A program made the translations under genes and the position numbers. The notes below the pieces were generated by a model. The model was not told where the DNA came from, searched no databases, and worked only from the letters and a program-made list of their open reading frames with translations. Positions 17,742-43,439 of a stretch of DNA of 64,000 nucleotides are shown here, in pieces (the first letter of the stretch is position 1; every line of letters starts with the position of its first letter). The DNA is from Scytolyngbya sp. HA4215-MV1 (lineage in GTDB: Bacteria; Cyanobacteriota; Cyanobacteriia; Leptolyngbyales; Leptolyngbyaceae): contig JAHHIA010000010.1 in NCBI GenBank assembly GCA_019359045.1, positions 62,001-126,000 of the forward strand, given 5' to 3'.

Positions 17742-17918
17742 GAACCGTTACTAATTCATGGGACGGGAACAGGATCGAAAATAGTCTCACTAAGATTGGA
17801 CGCATCCGCTTTGCCGATTGGTGGGGAGCGATTTAGCAGAAATTACTGTTCCATTTTTGCTTTAAAGTTCAGGCTCTATCGCGATTTTAATGACATGATG
17901 AACAGGCAAGGGGCTTAA

Positions 17919-18096
17919 GAGAATGCTTTAAAAGTCCTGACACAAATAGCAATAAATACAATCTCCCTCAATTCCTGCACTGGCGTGTTGCTGCGCTAAA
18001 AAAAAGGGAAACTTTGAGGCTGATTTCCCCCTTTTTAAGAGGCTAGGGGAAGTTCTGAGCACTCAACATCAGGCTAGCACCTTTGCAAACCGCCTC
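17919..18096. mobile_element. MITE-like element, family A, copy 1 (empty)
   Basis: 178 bases flanked by TAA (17916-17918 and 18097-18099). Its ends are imperfect inverted repeats beginning GAG. The interior (stretches such as GGGAAACTTTGAGGCTGAT) matches the copy at 40578-40935. There is no coding capacity. TNA target duplications and GAG-starting ends are features of some IS5-family groups, so it may be mobilised by such a transposase located elsewhere. This copy lacks the insert found in copy 2, so it shows the empty site. Confidence 0.75.
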
Positions 18097-18392
18097 TAAG
18101 CCCTTTGTTACAAAGGATTTTTTTGTTTAATTTGGCATTGCTATAAATTATTAATTTTAATTAAACAATCCGTACTGGTAAAAATGATGAAATCCATACC
18201 TTCTTAAAAAGAAAACATCAATAAAAAATTAAAAATGGATGTATTTCTTCTGGATTAATTACAAACAAACGGACAGTTTTCTAACAATTGCCTACTTTGA
18301 AAAACAAATTCTCCCTTTTTTGAAGCGAAAATCTCGATCGCTACACAAGTCCTGAGGGACTTACATGAAAATAAAAATACCAGCGGTTTGGA

Positions 18393-37700: not shown

Positions 37701-39897
37701 AATCATTGCGATTGCCTCGCGGCGTGTCAAACTCCCAGCCGTTTGTTCCTCTGCCCAAAAAGAAGTTGCTAATCAAACTGGTAGAGGCGACTCCGCCGCT
37801 GGCGCCATCCGAAAAGGAAATGGGGACAAAATTGGTACTGCGATCGAGGGTTGCCTGCGTACCCGGATGGACGGTGCTGGCAAGACATGCCAGAGGATAA
37901 TCCCCCGCTAGTGCCCCATTTGTGTTGACATCCCACTGATAAACGGCTGTACTTTGAACCGCCGCCAGGTTGTCTCGTAGTGTGCGACGCTGGCGGGCTT
38001 CATGTTGACGATCTCCGGGAGTGTTGGATGTGCGATCGGGGGGATAGAGCGGATCGCCCCACATTTCAGGTAAGAGGGACGGGGTTGCTGTACTCGCAAC
38101 GGCTGGGAAGGGAGGCAATGGACTGCCAAAAGTTTGACCGCCCCCTCCAGAACTACCAGTCGTGTTATCCAGAGTGCTGCCATTGCCATTGTTATCTACA
38201 GGGGTCTCCCAGCCGTAAGGATTGCCCAATTCCAGGCGCTGTCCTACGATAAGCCGCAATCCTTCCACCCTGGCGCGTCGTTCCCAGTAACCATCTAGTC
38301 CCAGGTTCTCAGTTGCACCTGCGGGTGGGTCTTCGCGGGTCAGTTGTCCGCTTGGCTCTGTGGTTGGGGTGATGGGAGAGCCACTCCGGATGGGAATCCC
38401 TGTCTGTGTGACCCCATTTGCCAGATCCGGAAATGCACTGCTATAAACCGGTTTGGGACCATAGCGATTATCTGCCCGATAGGTATCGTCTAGGTAAGGG
38501 GTGGGGGATTTATCACTAAAAATCCGTTTTTGTTGGACAAAGTCAGTACTCATCCAGTTCGAGACGGAATTTGGTGGCGAGAAAGTGCCTCCCCGGGCAA
38601 CCGATTCATCTTTGGTGACAATTTTCACCGGATCTAAGGCGAGAGCAATGGTTCCAGCTGCTGGAGCCGAGGCGACGGAATCGTTAGAAGGAGTCAGGGG
38701 CGAATTGTTGGTCTTGGGTGCAACCCCCGCTCCTGCCCAGACATGGAAACTCGAACTGCCAACAAAGGTGTTGTCTTTGGTCGAGCCAGCAATGATTTGT
38801 CCACTGAAACCATTCGGCTCGTCCTTGGTAATAGTCACTTCAGAAGCCGATTGCTGATAGACACAAGAGCCTGGGGAGCTAATCATGTAGCCCTTAAATC
38901 GGTCGAGATTACTAGAGCCAATAATCAGGTTGCCCCGAGTGTGCATCGCCCCGTTCCAGTTGAAGACAGGTCCTGGGAAGATCTCTAAGTCATTGCGGAA
39001 CCAGGCTCCCCACTTGTTGCCTCGGTCAATTTGACGATCTTGCTGCAACTCTAAGGTTGTTACGGTGCGGTTGGTTGCATTGCCACCCACCACGACCGCA
39101 TTAATCTGAATCGATTTCAGGATCTTGGAAGAATTGGTGGAATCTGTATACCATCCCCCCTCCGGAGCGCGGGTCGCAACTGGACAATTGGCATTGGCAC
39201 TACTTCCCCCCAAGTTGACTGGACCTGTACGAGTGACTAATGCTGGTGCTTTGACATCGTCAGTGGATTGACGCACCGTAACCGTATTCCCAGTTCCATT
39301 GGAATCTCTAACGATAATGGAGTAAGCAATGGTTTCTAAAGTGCCATCTCCATTGGTATCAACCTGATAAGTCCAAGCATTATCAACCCCGATATCAAAA
39401 GTACTCCCTGCATTGATATTGACTCGTTTTTCGTCAGGTAGGGTATAAGGATCGCTCGTAGGATTAGAAGCGACTGCGGGCAGGTGAGAAAATCCGCCAG
39501 TCCCATTATTGAGCAGCAGGCTTTCTAGGTTGGCATCCGAAGGAATCCCGCCTGGCAGACGTGGATCTTTGCTCAGCATGTATTGAATCTTTGCTTTTGC
39601 CCGGTCCATGACAGGGGTGGCAGCATTGTAAATGACCGTTTGGGAGCGTTCGCCAATGGCTTGCGACGATCGGTTAAATGCCCGATAGGTCATTGCTCCT
39701 ACGGTTAAGGTGACGACCAACAAGAGCAAGACAGTGGTTGGCAAGACGAACCCGGCACTAGTAGAGCCAAATCTGCGTTGGGTTACCAGGGATACTCGTA
39801 GAAACCAGTTCACCATCTCCTTGGTGAGCGATCCGGATAGCTTTCGGACTTGTCGAAATAGTTTTTGGATGGCTTGAACGAGTTGACGGTTCGACAT
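34705..39897 (-). CDS. hpsA: Hormogonium polysaccharide biosynthesis protein HpsA
   Basis: 1730 residues. After a cytoplasmic stretch the phrase TSAGFVLPTTVLLLLVVTLTVGAMTYRAF forms one membrane segment, pilin-like but lacking Glu at +5. The rest is a very long Asn/Thr/Pro-rich extracellular region with repeated phrases such as GDFNHHSTDG-like and NNPVYIQGDF. Size, the single N-terminal anchor and the pseudopilin genes downstream match HpsA of Nostoc punctiforme, needed for polysaccharide release and hormogonium gliding. AGGAAGG lies before the ATG. Confidence 0.85.
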   Translation of the reverse strand: MSNRQLVQAIQKLFRQVRKLSGSLTKEMVNWFLRVSLVTQRRFGSTSAGFVLPTTVLLLLVVTLTVGAMTYRAFNRSSQAIGERSQTVIYNAATPVMDRAKAKIQYMLSKDPRLPGGIPSDANLESLLLNNGTGGFSHLPAVASNPTSDPYTLPDEKRVNINAGSTFDIGVDNAWTYQVDTNGDGTLETIAYSIIVRDSNGTGNTVTVRQSTDDVKAPALVTRTGPVNLGGSSANANCPVATRAPEGGWYTDSTNSSKILKSIQINAVVVGGNATNRTVTTLELQQDRQIDRGNKWGAWFRNDLEIFPGPVFNWNGAMHTRGNLIIGSSNLDRFKGYMISSPGSCVYQQSASEVTITKDEPNGFSGQIIAGSTKDNTFVGSSSFHVWAGAGVAPKTNNSPLTPSNDSVASAPAAGTIALALDPVKIVTKDESVARGGTFSPPNSVSNWMSTDFVQQKRIFSDKSPTPYLDDTYRADNRYGPKPVYSSAFPDLANGVTQTGIPIRSGSPITPTTEPSGQLTREDPPAGATENLGLDGYWERRARVEGLRLIVGQRLELGNPYGWETPVDNNGNGSTLDNTTGSSGGGGQTFGSPLPPFPAVASTATPSLLPEMWGDPLYPPDRTSNTPGDRQHEARQRRTLRDNLAAVQSTAVYQWDVNTNGALAGDYPLACLASTVHPGTQATLDRSTNFVPISFSDGASGGVASTSLISNFFLGRGTNGWEFDTPRGNRNDFLTDIRNSASDLRNALRNLSRFAGDPRGAFPAVQEPSIANGGTGRNIVHPYPRSTMWGDFSDLRRVVDLLDGVNPDGSTTSRTSYDILSPADKTTLQTAACTIGMLAYNVRTVESFNPANPGNQTIGTTTNTVNALTTLAQALSGMTDNTVTPALGSNDEIAPIVTNGAATQLWQKFRYSSLPPEAYIERLKQPPYNFAPDSAVVKLAELIYLNYQVRRDRLYGFRGSPAYLYEWDDGFSTLPNTRVPLACNPDDFSTVLSGSGALVRGMRLGLARLCGEVRFKSAISPSRVTGAADDANQPFRYDGIDIAPRFPSLYYLFPRVNHDHDGAVWDTTNGATNTPDGLYQAHGVSPKLLTPEEEASGTVLWTHDIDHRQPGNTNPTDRLGSGALVAATLTATAPYNPLLLSTQGTTETAFNPTVNLPPEPYVVDPNIRGVSATSDSTATVPSTFNYQKVDLATVQVLPRPVGSAPSTNRSDTIWTLPTATFIAGTTPNGIVNPAGNQIAIPFLDKALFNGREIMNVRVMDLDLDLMRRNKPTGSNDTLLPGLNNTNNSGIIYAFREDAIREDKIARPAATAMNATLGLSAPAWNPGATAANTTPTDPAVDSVNGISTKSVDYYGDPDRRPYGFRLRNGVDLRRAPGGTVDAANSPGVSFISDNPVYIQGDFNHHSTDGTAASGSRLEEFTNLLTQPNWDNFYLRTSAQIDQRFADRTQDSWRPTEIIADAITLLSSNFVDGTVEDGFRRTNNGTQSYSNQPRPTASAPTSLGASYYWVQENPWTTPTSFTAATAQNTSPIAVSRNGNPLYCETPARDANYVNSCTRIREWGINPTTGAVNGNYDTALSDQPQSAIATRMNAIIVSGIVPSRAQQSYGGFHNFPRFIQSWGIDLNISGAFLQLNFSNYATGPFDQDSYEPGLSPTSTESIPYYGPPARRWGYDVGLQYAPAGPVARRFITPGTSWTETYRELPIDDPYAKNLRCAVAPQTGQKIDPIATCP

Positions 39898-40577
39898 GAC
39901 ACCTTCCTACCAAAAAATCACAAAGATTAGAGAGAAATACAAAGTTTGGATTGTGACGAATTCGAGATTCAGCCACCCATCGACAGTGAACAAGAAAACT
40001 ATTTTTGAGCAAAATAAGAATTAATGCCGATCGCAGTTCTGATGACTTCATGGATCGAGATCAGGGATATTGCTGCGATCGCTTTCAAACAATTGTAAAG
40101 ATGAGAGAGTTGTCGTTGATTTGAATCGTTTTAGGCAATGTTAAATCACCTTGCTCAGAATAAAGCAGTCAGTTTCTAAAATTGCTACAAACACTGCGAT
40201 CAAATTGAGGTGGAATCAGTGCCCCAATCTTACCCATGGGGTTGGGGGGAGAGATCATCCGTTACAAAAACTGGAACAGTTGATGATGAAGCACTCGGTA
40301 AGCATCCTGTGCAACCCCAAAATAATTATTCAAAAAATATTGTCCTAAGGGCTTTACCCTGATATTTTGTAATGACTGCTTTTGCGATTTACAGCCGCTT
40401 TTATGTGCATGAGCCACGCTTAGACCTATTGACTCATCGACTCATCCACCAAACTCGGCTAACTTGTCCGCAAACTGCTGCAATACAACATCCCAAGCCC
40501 GAAATCTGCAAAAAAAAGATAAGGACAGATCTGTCCTTATCTTCTAAATAGTGATGAATTGTAATCAAAAGCTTTTA
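39898..40577. other. Intergenic region upstream of hpsA
   Basis: About 680 bases with no convincing gene. It must hold the hpsA promoter, but none was recognised with confidence. A perfect palindrome lies at 40516-40543 and the MITE starts at 40578. A 65-codon frame at 40151-40348 was rejected. Confidence 0.55.
40516..40543. repeat. Perfect 28-base palindrome
   Basis: Arms of 14 bases (centre AGATCT) with no loop. It stands 34 bases before the MITE. On the minus strand it is followed by a T-run (A-run on the plus strand at 40507-40517), so it could terminate minus-strand transcripts coming from rpmB. Confidence 0.75.
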
Positions 40578-40935
40578 GAGGATGTTTTAAAAGTCTTTTC
40601 GCAAGTAGTAACAGATACGATCCCCCTAAATCCCCGCGCTGGCGCGCCGCTGCGCTAGAAAAAAGGGAGACTTTGAGGCTGATCCCCCCTTTTTAAGCTA
40701 CGGTGTACAAACAAATCTCAGATTCAAGGCGAAACCCCTGGAGATCCCCCCAACCCCCCTTTGAAAAGGGGGGCTTCAGCACCCAAAGTCCCCCTTTTTA
40801 AGGGGGATTTAGGGGGATCAACCCACTCAATGACATCACTGATTACTCGTGTGTACACGGTAACCTTTTTAAGGGGGGCTAGGGGGGATCTCTGAGTGCT
40901 CAACCATCACAGCGAACACCTTTTCAAACACCCTC
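40578..40935. mobile_element. MITE-like element, family A, copy 2, with a second element nested inside
   Basis: Outer ends GAGGATGTTTTAAAAG and (reverse) GAGGGTGTTTGAAAAG match at 14 of 16 positions. The flanks are TTA at 40575-40577 and 40936-40938. Apart from the insert the sequence follows copy 1 at 17919-18096 from end to end. The right-hand TTA is, on the minus strand, the TAA stop of rpmB, so the element abuts that gene. Confidence 0.78.
40698..40863. mobile_element. Small inserted element nested in the MITE
   Basis: 166 bases flanked by the 10-base repeat CCTTTTTAAG (40688-40697 and 40864-40873), present only once in copy 1. Its ends CTACGGTGTACA and (reverse) TTACCGTGTACA match at 10 of 12. 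Inside are GC-rich palindromic pieces such as AACCCCCCTTTG with AAAGGGGGG. There is no gene. Ends, duplication and the empty site together indicate transposition of a second, unrelated MITE. Confidence 0.72.
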
Positions 40936-41172
40936 TTATAGGCGATTTAGGTCAATTCCTGCTTCCTTGGCTAGAGACTCTAGACTGCGATGCTCCAGCG
41001 TTTTGAGCGCTCTGGTGGATAACCGCAGGCGAACCCAACGATTGCCCTCTGCCCACCAGATCCGCTTCCACTGCAAATTCACTTCTTGCAGCTTCTTAGT
41101 ACGACGGTGAGAGTGGGAAACGGCGTAGGCGTTGTTCGCCTTCTTGCCGGTCAGTTGACATTTGCGAGACAT
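40936..41172 (-). CDS. rpmB: 50S ribosomal protein L28
   Basis: 78 residues: [34 protein letters not shown], then [16 protein letters not shown], the standard L28 fold. The length is usual. The stop codon TAA lies in the target duplication of the MITE at 40578-40935, so the native terminator region has been displaced by the element. Confidence 0.95.
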
Positions 41173-41260
41173 GGGACTCTCCAGCGGTGATGTTGCAACA
41201 CGGCTCTCTATTGTACAGATAAATTCTACAAAGATGAAAGAGTTTTTGAGAAAAAGTGGC

Positions 41261-41328
41261 GAGGTGAAGGAATAGAGAGGTGAAGCAGCTGGAAAAGCCT
41301 CTCCTTCACCTCTCTATTCCTCTACCTC
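41261..41328 (-). terminator. Strong hairpin between htpG and rpmB
   Basis: Arms 41261-41285 and 41304-41328 match at 23 of 25 positions, with an 18-base loop. It is built of GAGGTGAAG-type repeats. Position after the htpG stop suggests a terminator or a repeat used as one. Confidence 0.75.
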
Positions 41329-41366
41329 TTCGCTATACTCAGTGTCAGCGATTAGACGTTGTTGTC

Positions 41367-43439
41367 CTACACCTTCTCGGTCAGATTGGTCAAAAGACGG
41401 TTCGATCGCTCCACAAACAACTTCATGCCATCGGCGTCAAAGCCCTTTTGCGCCATCAGTGCCAGATCATAAACATGCTGACAGATTTGAGTTGCCAAAG
41501 TGCCCGATGCAGACGCGCCATCGGGTTGAATTACACTTCCCTGACTGATGGTGACCAAATTTTGGATCAGTGGATGGGCGGTGTTCACTAAGAGGGTATG
41601 TTCTTCGGGAAACTGCATCGTTTGCTGTTGCATCAGTGCATTGAGTTCCTGAAGGCGACGCAAATGTTCAGGGAGAAGGACGATCGCGGGAGGTGTTCCT
41701 TTGGGGTCGTCTGACTTGAGCGCTTCTGTCCGAATCGTAATTTTGGGAAGGTTAAGGGCTTTCTGGAATAGCTCCTTGATCTGTTCACTCCGCGTCTGGT
41801 TGGTTTTGGGATCAACAATCTCAGCCGCTTTGTCTTTGTCGATCAGGGTGTCGTCTAGATCTGCATCCACCCGCGAGAATTTCACGTCTGGATGCTCTCG
41901 TTCCAGGAAGCTGACGAAGTGAGTATCGATGAAAGAGTCGAAGAACAACACTTCCAATCCCTGATTTTTGTGCAGTTCTACATAGGTTGCTTGGGAAACT
42001 TCATCAGTGCAGTAGAAAACCCGGTTTTCATGATGCGATTGGTTCCGCTCTAGATATTCTTTCAGCGTCGTATAGCCGGGAGATGATGGAGTATCTGGGT
42101 TGCTCTGAGTGGAAGGCGTGACATCTTGCCAGACATCCCCTTCGCCTGATTGCACTTCCACTTTTGGTGCATCCTGCTCTGCGATCGCAGTTGCCTGACC
42201 TCCACCGCCTTGCCAGGTGGTGCGGTAGATCAGAATATCCTCGACCTGTTTTTTGAACTTATCGTCATTAATCGAGCCAAACTTGACGAAAGTGCCGAGG
42301 TCTTGCCAACAGCGAATATATTCGGTGCGATCGTCGCGGTAAAGCTCCTTCAAGCGATCGCCGACTTTCTTGGCGATATAGTCCGCGATTCGCCGTACAG
42401 TGCGATCGTTCTGCAAAAAGCTGCGCGAAACGTTTAACGGAATGTCAACACTATCGATTACGCCCCTCAATGGGAGCAAGAACTTGGGAATGACTTCCTC
42501 ACAATTATCGCTAACAAACACCTGGTTGCAGAATAACTTGATTTGTCCTTTGCTGGTATCGACATCCGGTTTGAGCTTCGGAAAATAGAGAATGCCATTC
42601 ACAACAAAGGGATAATCCGTATTCAGGTGTACCCAAAGCAATGGCTCTTCTTGAAATGGGTAGAGATAGCGGTAAAACTCCAGGTAGTCTTCTTTGCTTA
42701 GTGAACTGGGTGATTCTTTCCAGGGGGCTTTTTGGCGGTTGATTTGCTCGGGCGCTTTTACCTCCGGCGGTGCCTCTCCTTCCTTCGGTGCCTCCCCTTC
42801 CTTCGGTGCCTCTTTGACATCTAGCTTGATGGCAAACGGCATGAAATCGCAGTATGTCTTGACCAACTGACGAATTCGGTAGGGTTCCAGGTACTCCTGC
42901 TCTTCATCCTGGATGGTCAACTTAATCGTGGTTCCCCGCGTCGCGCGGGAAGAGTCAGTCAGCTCAAACTCGGTGGAACCATCGCAAGACCAGTGAACGG
43001 GTTGTGCTCCTGCCTGGTAAGACAGGGTATCGATTTCTACCCGCGTTGCCACCATAAAAGACGAGTAGAACCCCAGCCCAAAGTGACCAATAATCTGCTC
43101 GTCGCTGCTGGCTTTGTATTTCTGGACAAATTCTTCTGCACTGGAGAACGCGACTTGGTTAATATATTTCTTGACCTCGTCGAGGGTCATGCCAATGCCA
43201 TTGTCGGTGACTGCCAGGGTTTTTTCCTGTTTGTCGATCGTAATCACAATCTCTGGTTCACCCAGATCGCCAGAAAATTCCCCTGAATGGGAGACCATTC
43301 GTAGCTTTTGAATCGCATCAACTGCGTTCGACACTAGCTCTCTGAGAAAAATTTCATGGTCAGAATAGAGCCATTTCTTGATAATGGGGAAAATATTCTC
43401 AGTATGAATACTGATGTTGCCCTTTTCCAAAGTGGTCAT
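41367..43439 (-). CDS. htpG: Hsp90-family chaperone HtpG
   Basis: 690 residues from MTTLEKGNISIHTENIFP. GHKL ATP-binding motifs: ELVSNAVDAIQKL (motif I), VTDNGIGMT (II) and GHFGLGFYSSFMV (III). The middle domain (RGVIDSVDIPLNVSRSFLQ) and C-terminal dimer domain follow. A short repeat APKEGE, three times in about 70 bases (42745-42815), lies in the linker after the N-terminal domain. HtpG is a heat- and light-stress chaperone in cyanobacteria. Confidence 0.95.
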   Translation of the reverse strand: MTTLEKGNISIHTENIFPIIKKWLYSDHEIFLRELVSNAVDAIQKLRMVSHSGEFSGDLGEPEIVITIDKQEKTLAVTDNGIGMTLDEVKKYINQVAFSSAEEFVQKYKASSDEQIIGHFGLGFYSSFMVATRVEIDTLSYQAGAQPVHWSCDGSTEFELTDSSRATRGTTIKLTIQDEEQEYLEPYRIRQLVKTYCDFMPFAIKLDVKEAPKEGEAPKEGEAPPEVKAPEQINRQKAPWKESPSSLSKEDYLEFYRYLYPFQEEPLLWVHLNTDYPFVVNGILYFPKLKPDVDTSKGQIKLFCNQVFVSDNCEEVIPKFLLPLRGVIDSVDIPLNVSRSFLQNDRTVRRIADYIAKKVGDRLKELYRDDRTEYIRCWQDLGTFVKFGSINDDKFKKQVEDILIYRTTWQGGGGQATAIAEQDAPKVEVQSGEGDVWQDVTPSTQSNPDTPSSPGYTTLKEYLERNQSHHENRVFYCTDEVSQATYVELHKNQGLEVLFFDSFIDTHFVSFLEREHPDVKFSRVDADLDDTLIDKDKAAEIVDPKTNQTRSEQIKELFQKALNLPKITIRTEALKSDDPKGTPPAIVLLPEHLRRLQELNALMQQQTMQFPEEHTLLVNTAHPLIQNLVTISQGSVIQPDGASASGTLATQICQHVYDLALMAQKGFDADGMKLFVERSNRLLTNLTEKV

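Follow-up and report, generated by a model that had tools for sequence, protein, structure and literature searches.

Tn5 is a standard laboratory tool with a weak target preference. The criteria of the IS4 family, the consensus of its IS50 subgroup and IS4 subgroups with target specificity have been described previously (PMC2266710). Insertion sequences (IS) that insert into REP palindromes are also documented, including ISPa11, ISPpu9/10, ISRm22 and others (PMC1525189). Among the repeats of cyanobacteria that are short, non-coding and mobile, the Nezha MITE and the very small repeats described by Elhai and coworkers in 2008 are cited (PMC10969869, PMC3733652). The elements discussed below resemble them in these cited properties. 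The literature that we searched contained neither a description of the nested targeting reported here nor the core string of the hairpin involved; Nezha and the report of 2008 lay beyond the reach of this search, and some of our repeats may already have names.

The locus presented here most probably (about 85%) records the insertion of a Tn5-like IS4-family MITE into the hairpin of an older, unrelated MITE that serves as a repeatedly filled landing pad. The inner 166-bp MITE would derive from a Tn5-like IS4-family IS with 19-bp ends (CTACSGTGTACACACAARY), and would have reached the CCCCCCTTTTTAAGGGGGG hairpin of the older element by transposition, through a cut staggered by 10 bp. The IS and its MITEs would prefer palindromic CCC-N-GGG hairpins, and the hairpin-bearing outer MITE would act as a genome-wide landing pad, filled repeatedly, independently and in both orientations. 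Like the REP-targeting IS (PMC1525189), this system uses a repeated extragenic palindrome as the preferred target. In contrast to them, the palindrome is part of a MITE that has ends and a TNA duplication of its own, the incoming element is Tn5-like, and the site is used by MITEs, by complete IS and by the ISAs1 family too. A preference of IS for repeated palindromes is known; the present case departs from it in the Tn5-like element, the MITE-borne palindrome and the use of one pad by two IS families.

The window is the whole stretch of 64,000 nucleotides analysed here (G000:C13:62001-126000), from a genus represented by one genome. Together with its insert, the outer MITE occupies 40578-40935 on the forward strand. 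Its halves cover 40578-40697 and 40874-40935, to which one copy of a 10-bp duplication is added. The termini are GAGGATGTTTTAAAAG and, as reverse complement, GAGGGTGTTTGAAAAG, and a TTA target duplication flanks them at 40575-40577 and 40936-40938. The inner MITE is non-coding, lies on the forward strand at 40698-40863, measures exactly 166 bp and runs from CTACGGTGTACA to TGTACACGGTAA (termini CTACGGTGTACA and, as reverse complement, TTACCGTGTACA). Exact copies of the 10-bp target duplication CCTTTTTAAG border it at 40688-40697 and 40864-40873. The insertion interrupts a hairpin of which the left arm, CCCCCCTTTTTAAG, lies at 40684-40697 and which is intact as CCCCCCTTTTTAAGGGGGG in empty relatives. 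Two different short elements, one inside the other, with duplications of 3 bases (TNA) and about 10 bases, and a 166-base segment with its own inverted ends splitting the outer copy had been proposed in a preliminary description of this DNA, and these points are confirmed to the base, the inner duplication being exactly 10 bp here. An Rfam search of 39500-42000 gave no match.

The same description had named a second outer element in the window as the empty copy. This element (17919-18096, forward strand; 17916-18099 with the TAA on both sides) is indeed uninterrupted and contains CCTTTTTAAG once, at 18030-18039. Where it aligns with the left part of the filled element, the two are 81% identical; it is a paralogue that has diverged and occupies another site, not the pre-insertion site of the filled copy. 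A complete insertion history within the window is not supported: the copy at 17919 is only a paralogue, and assembly on site and arrival as a single unit are indistinguishable from the window alone.

We turned to the other copies in the same genome. Across its 6.6 Mb the end motifs CTACSGTGTACA and TNAGAGGNTGTTTNAAAAG are matched exactly 38 and 39 times, and the reversed control patterns of both have no match, so that the element pair is not a product of chance. The outer family has the ends GAGGRTGTTTKAAAAG, and 22 of the 35 copies read are flanked by identical TNA duplications. Where an exact outer end lacks an exact partner, a slightly diverged end in most cases lies as far away as the length of a MITE requires, and a few such ends are single; open reading frames were listed for one such locus (L103). 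Inverted ends, a 3-bp TNA duplication and many copies characterize the outer element as expected of an IS5-family MITE. The inner element is likewise a MITE: it is short and non-coding, has inverted ends and many copies, and produces a target duplication of exactly 10 bp in the window and of 10-12 bp generally. A lone CTACGGTGTACA at C23:384624 was set aside as a chance match inside a nitrogenase-cofactor-type gene; the genome carries nitrogenase-type genes.

These copies bear on the question of which form came first. If the long form were ancestral, a deletion between the two CCTTTTTAAG repeats would leave exactly one CCTTTTTAAG, as found at 17919. However, inner copies that stand alone are flanked by exact duplications unrelated to CCTTTTTAAG, for example CTCTCAAGAT at C31:582386 and GCTCCAAGAG at C16:220985. 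Filled outer copies also differ in inner core and orientation: the hairpin used in the window is filled again at C23:591162 by an inner element whose core has diverged, and at C31:160130 by a reversed element at a site shifted by one base, while at C21:15975 it is the outer element's other hairpin that holds the inner one. These three fillings are best read as separate insertions. Finally, the short form is in the majority, since inner ends are present in 10 and absent from 25 of the 35 outer copies. The unrelated duplications, the varied cores and orientations and this majority together indicate insertion and exclude the ancestral long form as a general account, which agrees with the earlier view that the short form came first. 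A further argument comes from a relative in another genus (G015), where the hairpin variants peculiar to an individual outer copy are themselves duplicated. We consider the deletion account extremely improbable, even if a single secondary deletion may have occurred elsewhere.

It had also been suggested that IS families with matching ends might be found for both elements. For the inner element this search succeeded in relatives; for the outer element no such IS was found in the loci sampled. The 19-bp end CTACSGTGTACACACAARY is present in 20 of 42 genomes of the family and has 144 matches in G015, where the spacing of paired ends is 188 bp in the MITEs and about 1484 bp in the IS. IS with the ends of the inner MITE, identical to the family consensus, occur in G015 and G008. 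The 1484-bp element of G015 encodes an IS4-family transposase (NF033590, E 2.6e-115) that resembles the Tn5 transposase over 394 residues (E 1.6e-37). Its DDE spacers of 103 and 140 residues fall within the D(60-110)D(100-150)E spacing of the IS4 family, and it contains the Y(2)R(3)E(6)K (YREK) motif as YCWRWRIEQLFATLK. The ends, CTACCGTGTACACACAAGTC, agree with the IS50-subgroup consensus CW------Y---CA-A--W- at all seven listed positions, and the length lies inside the 1350-1550 bp of that subgroup. The element is accordingly close to the IS50 (Tn5) subgroup (PMC2266710) in transposase similarity, DDE spacing, YREK motif, 19-bp-type ends and its size of 1.48 kb. It differs from IS50 in its strong hairpin preference, in the N-terminal frame break of the G015 copies and in the length of its duplications, which is 10-12 bp in 50 of 50 G015 copies instead of 8-9 bp. 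Since this length is outside the IS50 range, we assign the IS to the IS4 family as Tn5-like and do not file it in IS50; a duplication of about one helix turn is within the IS4-family definition. Duplications of 10-12 bp and a specific target are shared with the IS231 subgroup (PMC2266710), but the ends start with CTAC instead of CAT, and the transposase matches IS4_3/Tn5.

None of the seven IS copies of G015 (L170 and L219-L224) keeps the N-terminal part of the transposase in frame. All of them have the break close to the N terminus, where five G follow one another, and the main frame lacks the N-terminal part, as is also true of the Tn5 inhibitor. This break could reflect programmed frameshifting or a shared defect. 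The copy in G008 measures 1479 bp and has perfect ends and an open frame of 464 residues. Two further loci deserve mention. One of them, in G016 (L256, 990-2643), measures 1654 bp between inner-type ends, sits at a CCCCTTAGCAAGG target and contains an unrelated-looking, two-frame transposase-like gene (open reading frames at 1079-2274); it is perhaps a further nested IS. In G023, another IS4_3-type IS (L425, 1236-2745) with the ends CTATCCATTACGCAAAAGT is flanked by the 10-bp duplication AATTAGAATG, so that this length may hold generally across this branch of cyanobacteria.

The genome of the window itself contains no IS4_3 match, and its inner MITEs therefore look orphaned; the profiles PF13586 and PF01609 gave one weak and three matches there, respectively. 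The 166-bp MITE of the window and the IS of G015 have only their ends in common. The inner element was probably mobilized by a Tn5-like IS4-family IS. For the window copy we infer from the relatives that a Tn5-like transposase, since lost from this genome, would have acted in trans, presumably by cut-and-paste as in Tn5.

The recurrence of nesting is most evident in G015. Among the 50 inner copies read from this genome, 43 are near-identical MITEs and seven are complete IS of 1483-1484 bp that share their ends with the MITEs. Every copy is flanked by an exact target duplication, of 10 bp in 22 cases, 11 bp in 26 and 12 bp in two. Of these copies 38, complete IS among them, lie inside outer MITEs; three of the 50 were retrieved only by a search with the compound sequence and are hence biased, and without them the fraction is 35 of 47. 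A strict pattern finds about 55 outer copies of 160 bp in G015 (52 and 57 matches for the pattern), or roughly 0.1% of the genome, from which we estimate a several-hundred-fold enrichment of inner elements in outer MITEs.

Recurrence of this kind could also result if the nested pair had moved as a compound unit by way of the outer ends, so that copies of the compound, and not repeated insertions, were being counted. The intact TNA duplications around filled outer copies are what such a move requires, and the window copy itself may have arrived in this way. Yet in G015 the inner MITEs diverge by 0.025% on average, whereas the outer copies that hold them diverge by 7.7%, and the inner MITEs inside these outer copies lie in forward and reverse orientation equally often (16 and 16). 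The length and sequence of the duplications vary with the host hairpin. Amplification of a compound is thereby ruled out for the G015 set. Within the genome of the window, the hairpin used there is filled in three outer copies, and the fillings differ in core, orientation or site. As an overall explanation we regard compound movement as improbable, and retain repeated, independent insertion into the outer hairpin.

Targets outside the outer MITEs are similar in kind. The eight such sites are CCC-N-GGG-like and have a mean palindrome score of 6.9 of 11 against a background of 4.9 (P 8e-5), with four of the eight individually within the common background range. Other genera show comparable targets as well (CCCCTTAGCAAGG in G016, CCCCCTTACAAAA in G002 and CCCCCTTACCAAG in G008). 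A tally by hand from position 1 to 4.35 Mb of G015 contig 1 gave 19 outer copies with an IS4-type element, three with an ISAs1-family element and about six empty ones. The ISAs1-family insertions also sit in outer hairpins, and one was read with an exact 10-bp CCTTTTTAAG duplication. At L259, L260 and L261 of G015, ISAs1-family elements of two kinds occupy hairpins of outer MITEs. The hairpin of the outer MITE is a recurrent target for the Tn5-like IS and its derivatives, and not the site of a single event. The shape of the hairpin, beyond its base sequence alone, may be what is recognised.

The outer element and the inner element of the window share a core of roughly 77 bp, GATCCCCC...GGGGGATC, which consists of two inverted hairpins and lies at 40743-40819 on the forward strand within the inner MITE. 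Folding of this double-hairpin cassette as single-stranded DNA gives a z-score of -4.6, and a typical outer cassette, put together by hand from several copies, gives -4.2. Cassettes of this type, about 75-98 bp long, are shared by MITE-like elements with unrelated ends and also occur by themselves, at places without inverted ends. Apart from the window they were noted at L142, L143 and L155 and at L156 (1440-1642), a third element, which is bounded by the 20-bp inverted ends TGCCCATTGGTGTCAACTTA. One half-motif of it reaches up to 95 copies per genome and is present in 23 of 42 genomes. REP/REPIN sequences likewise consist of two inverted palindromes and are spread by RAYT transposases; in the cassette, two inverted hairpins are seen.

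A core common to both elements raises the possibility that homologous recombination between cassettes, and not transposition, brought in the inner segment. Such exchange seems to occur: two hybrids (L014 and L020) have one inner end only, and at C15:210033-210324 (L016) five inner-element ends follow one another in tandem, exactly 70 bp apart. This array of half-elements perhaps arose by recombination or by self-insertion at the shared hairpin. The shared core would account for both hybrids and array as products of recombination, which remains the explanation for the one-ended hybrids. The window copy, by contrast, has two complete inner ends and an exact duplication, which refutes recombination there. 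Moreover, the inner MITE of G015 inserts in the same way although it contains no cassette, showing that the cassette is not needed for insertion. We judge recombination very improbable as the source of the inner segment, in favor of transposition into the outer hairpin. A more tentative idea is that the cassette is an exchangeable landing-pad module in MITE families with unrelated ends, which spreads with each of them and attracts at least two IS families; we consider this possible, but rather doubtful.

As a lead only, the outer element may have an IS5-type origin. No autonomous IS that combines GAGGNTGTTTNAAAAG ends with an IS5-type transposase was found in the 30 DDE_Tnp_4 loci sampled, in 80 sampled loci of a broad pattern scan or in G015; a partner may exist elsewhere. 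Carriers of outer ends in this broad scan were mostly cyanobacteria. Stretches of about 1.3 kb between outer ends in G015 were considered as the autonomous IS of this element, and were identified as ISAs1-family insertions in the outer hairpin.

A hairpin-seeking relative of Tn5 would inform the mechanism of this transposon. The dozens of recent insertions with intact duplications, together with empty and filled targets in one genome and the presence of both orientations, constitute a large natural experiment on how a Tn5-like transposase chooses its targets. If the cassette does act as a module, it would channel transposition into repeats and so produce nested, self-extending repeat islands. 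Nested MITEs in cyanobacteria can arise by repeated targeting and not by chance.
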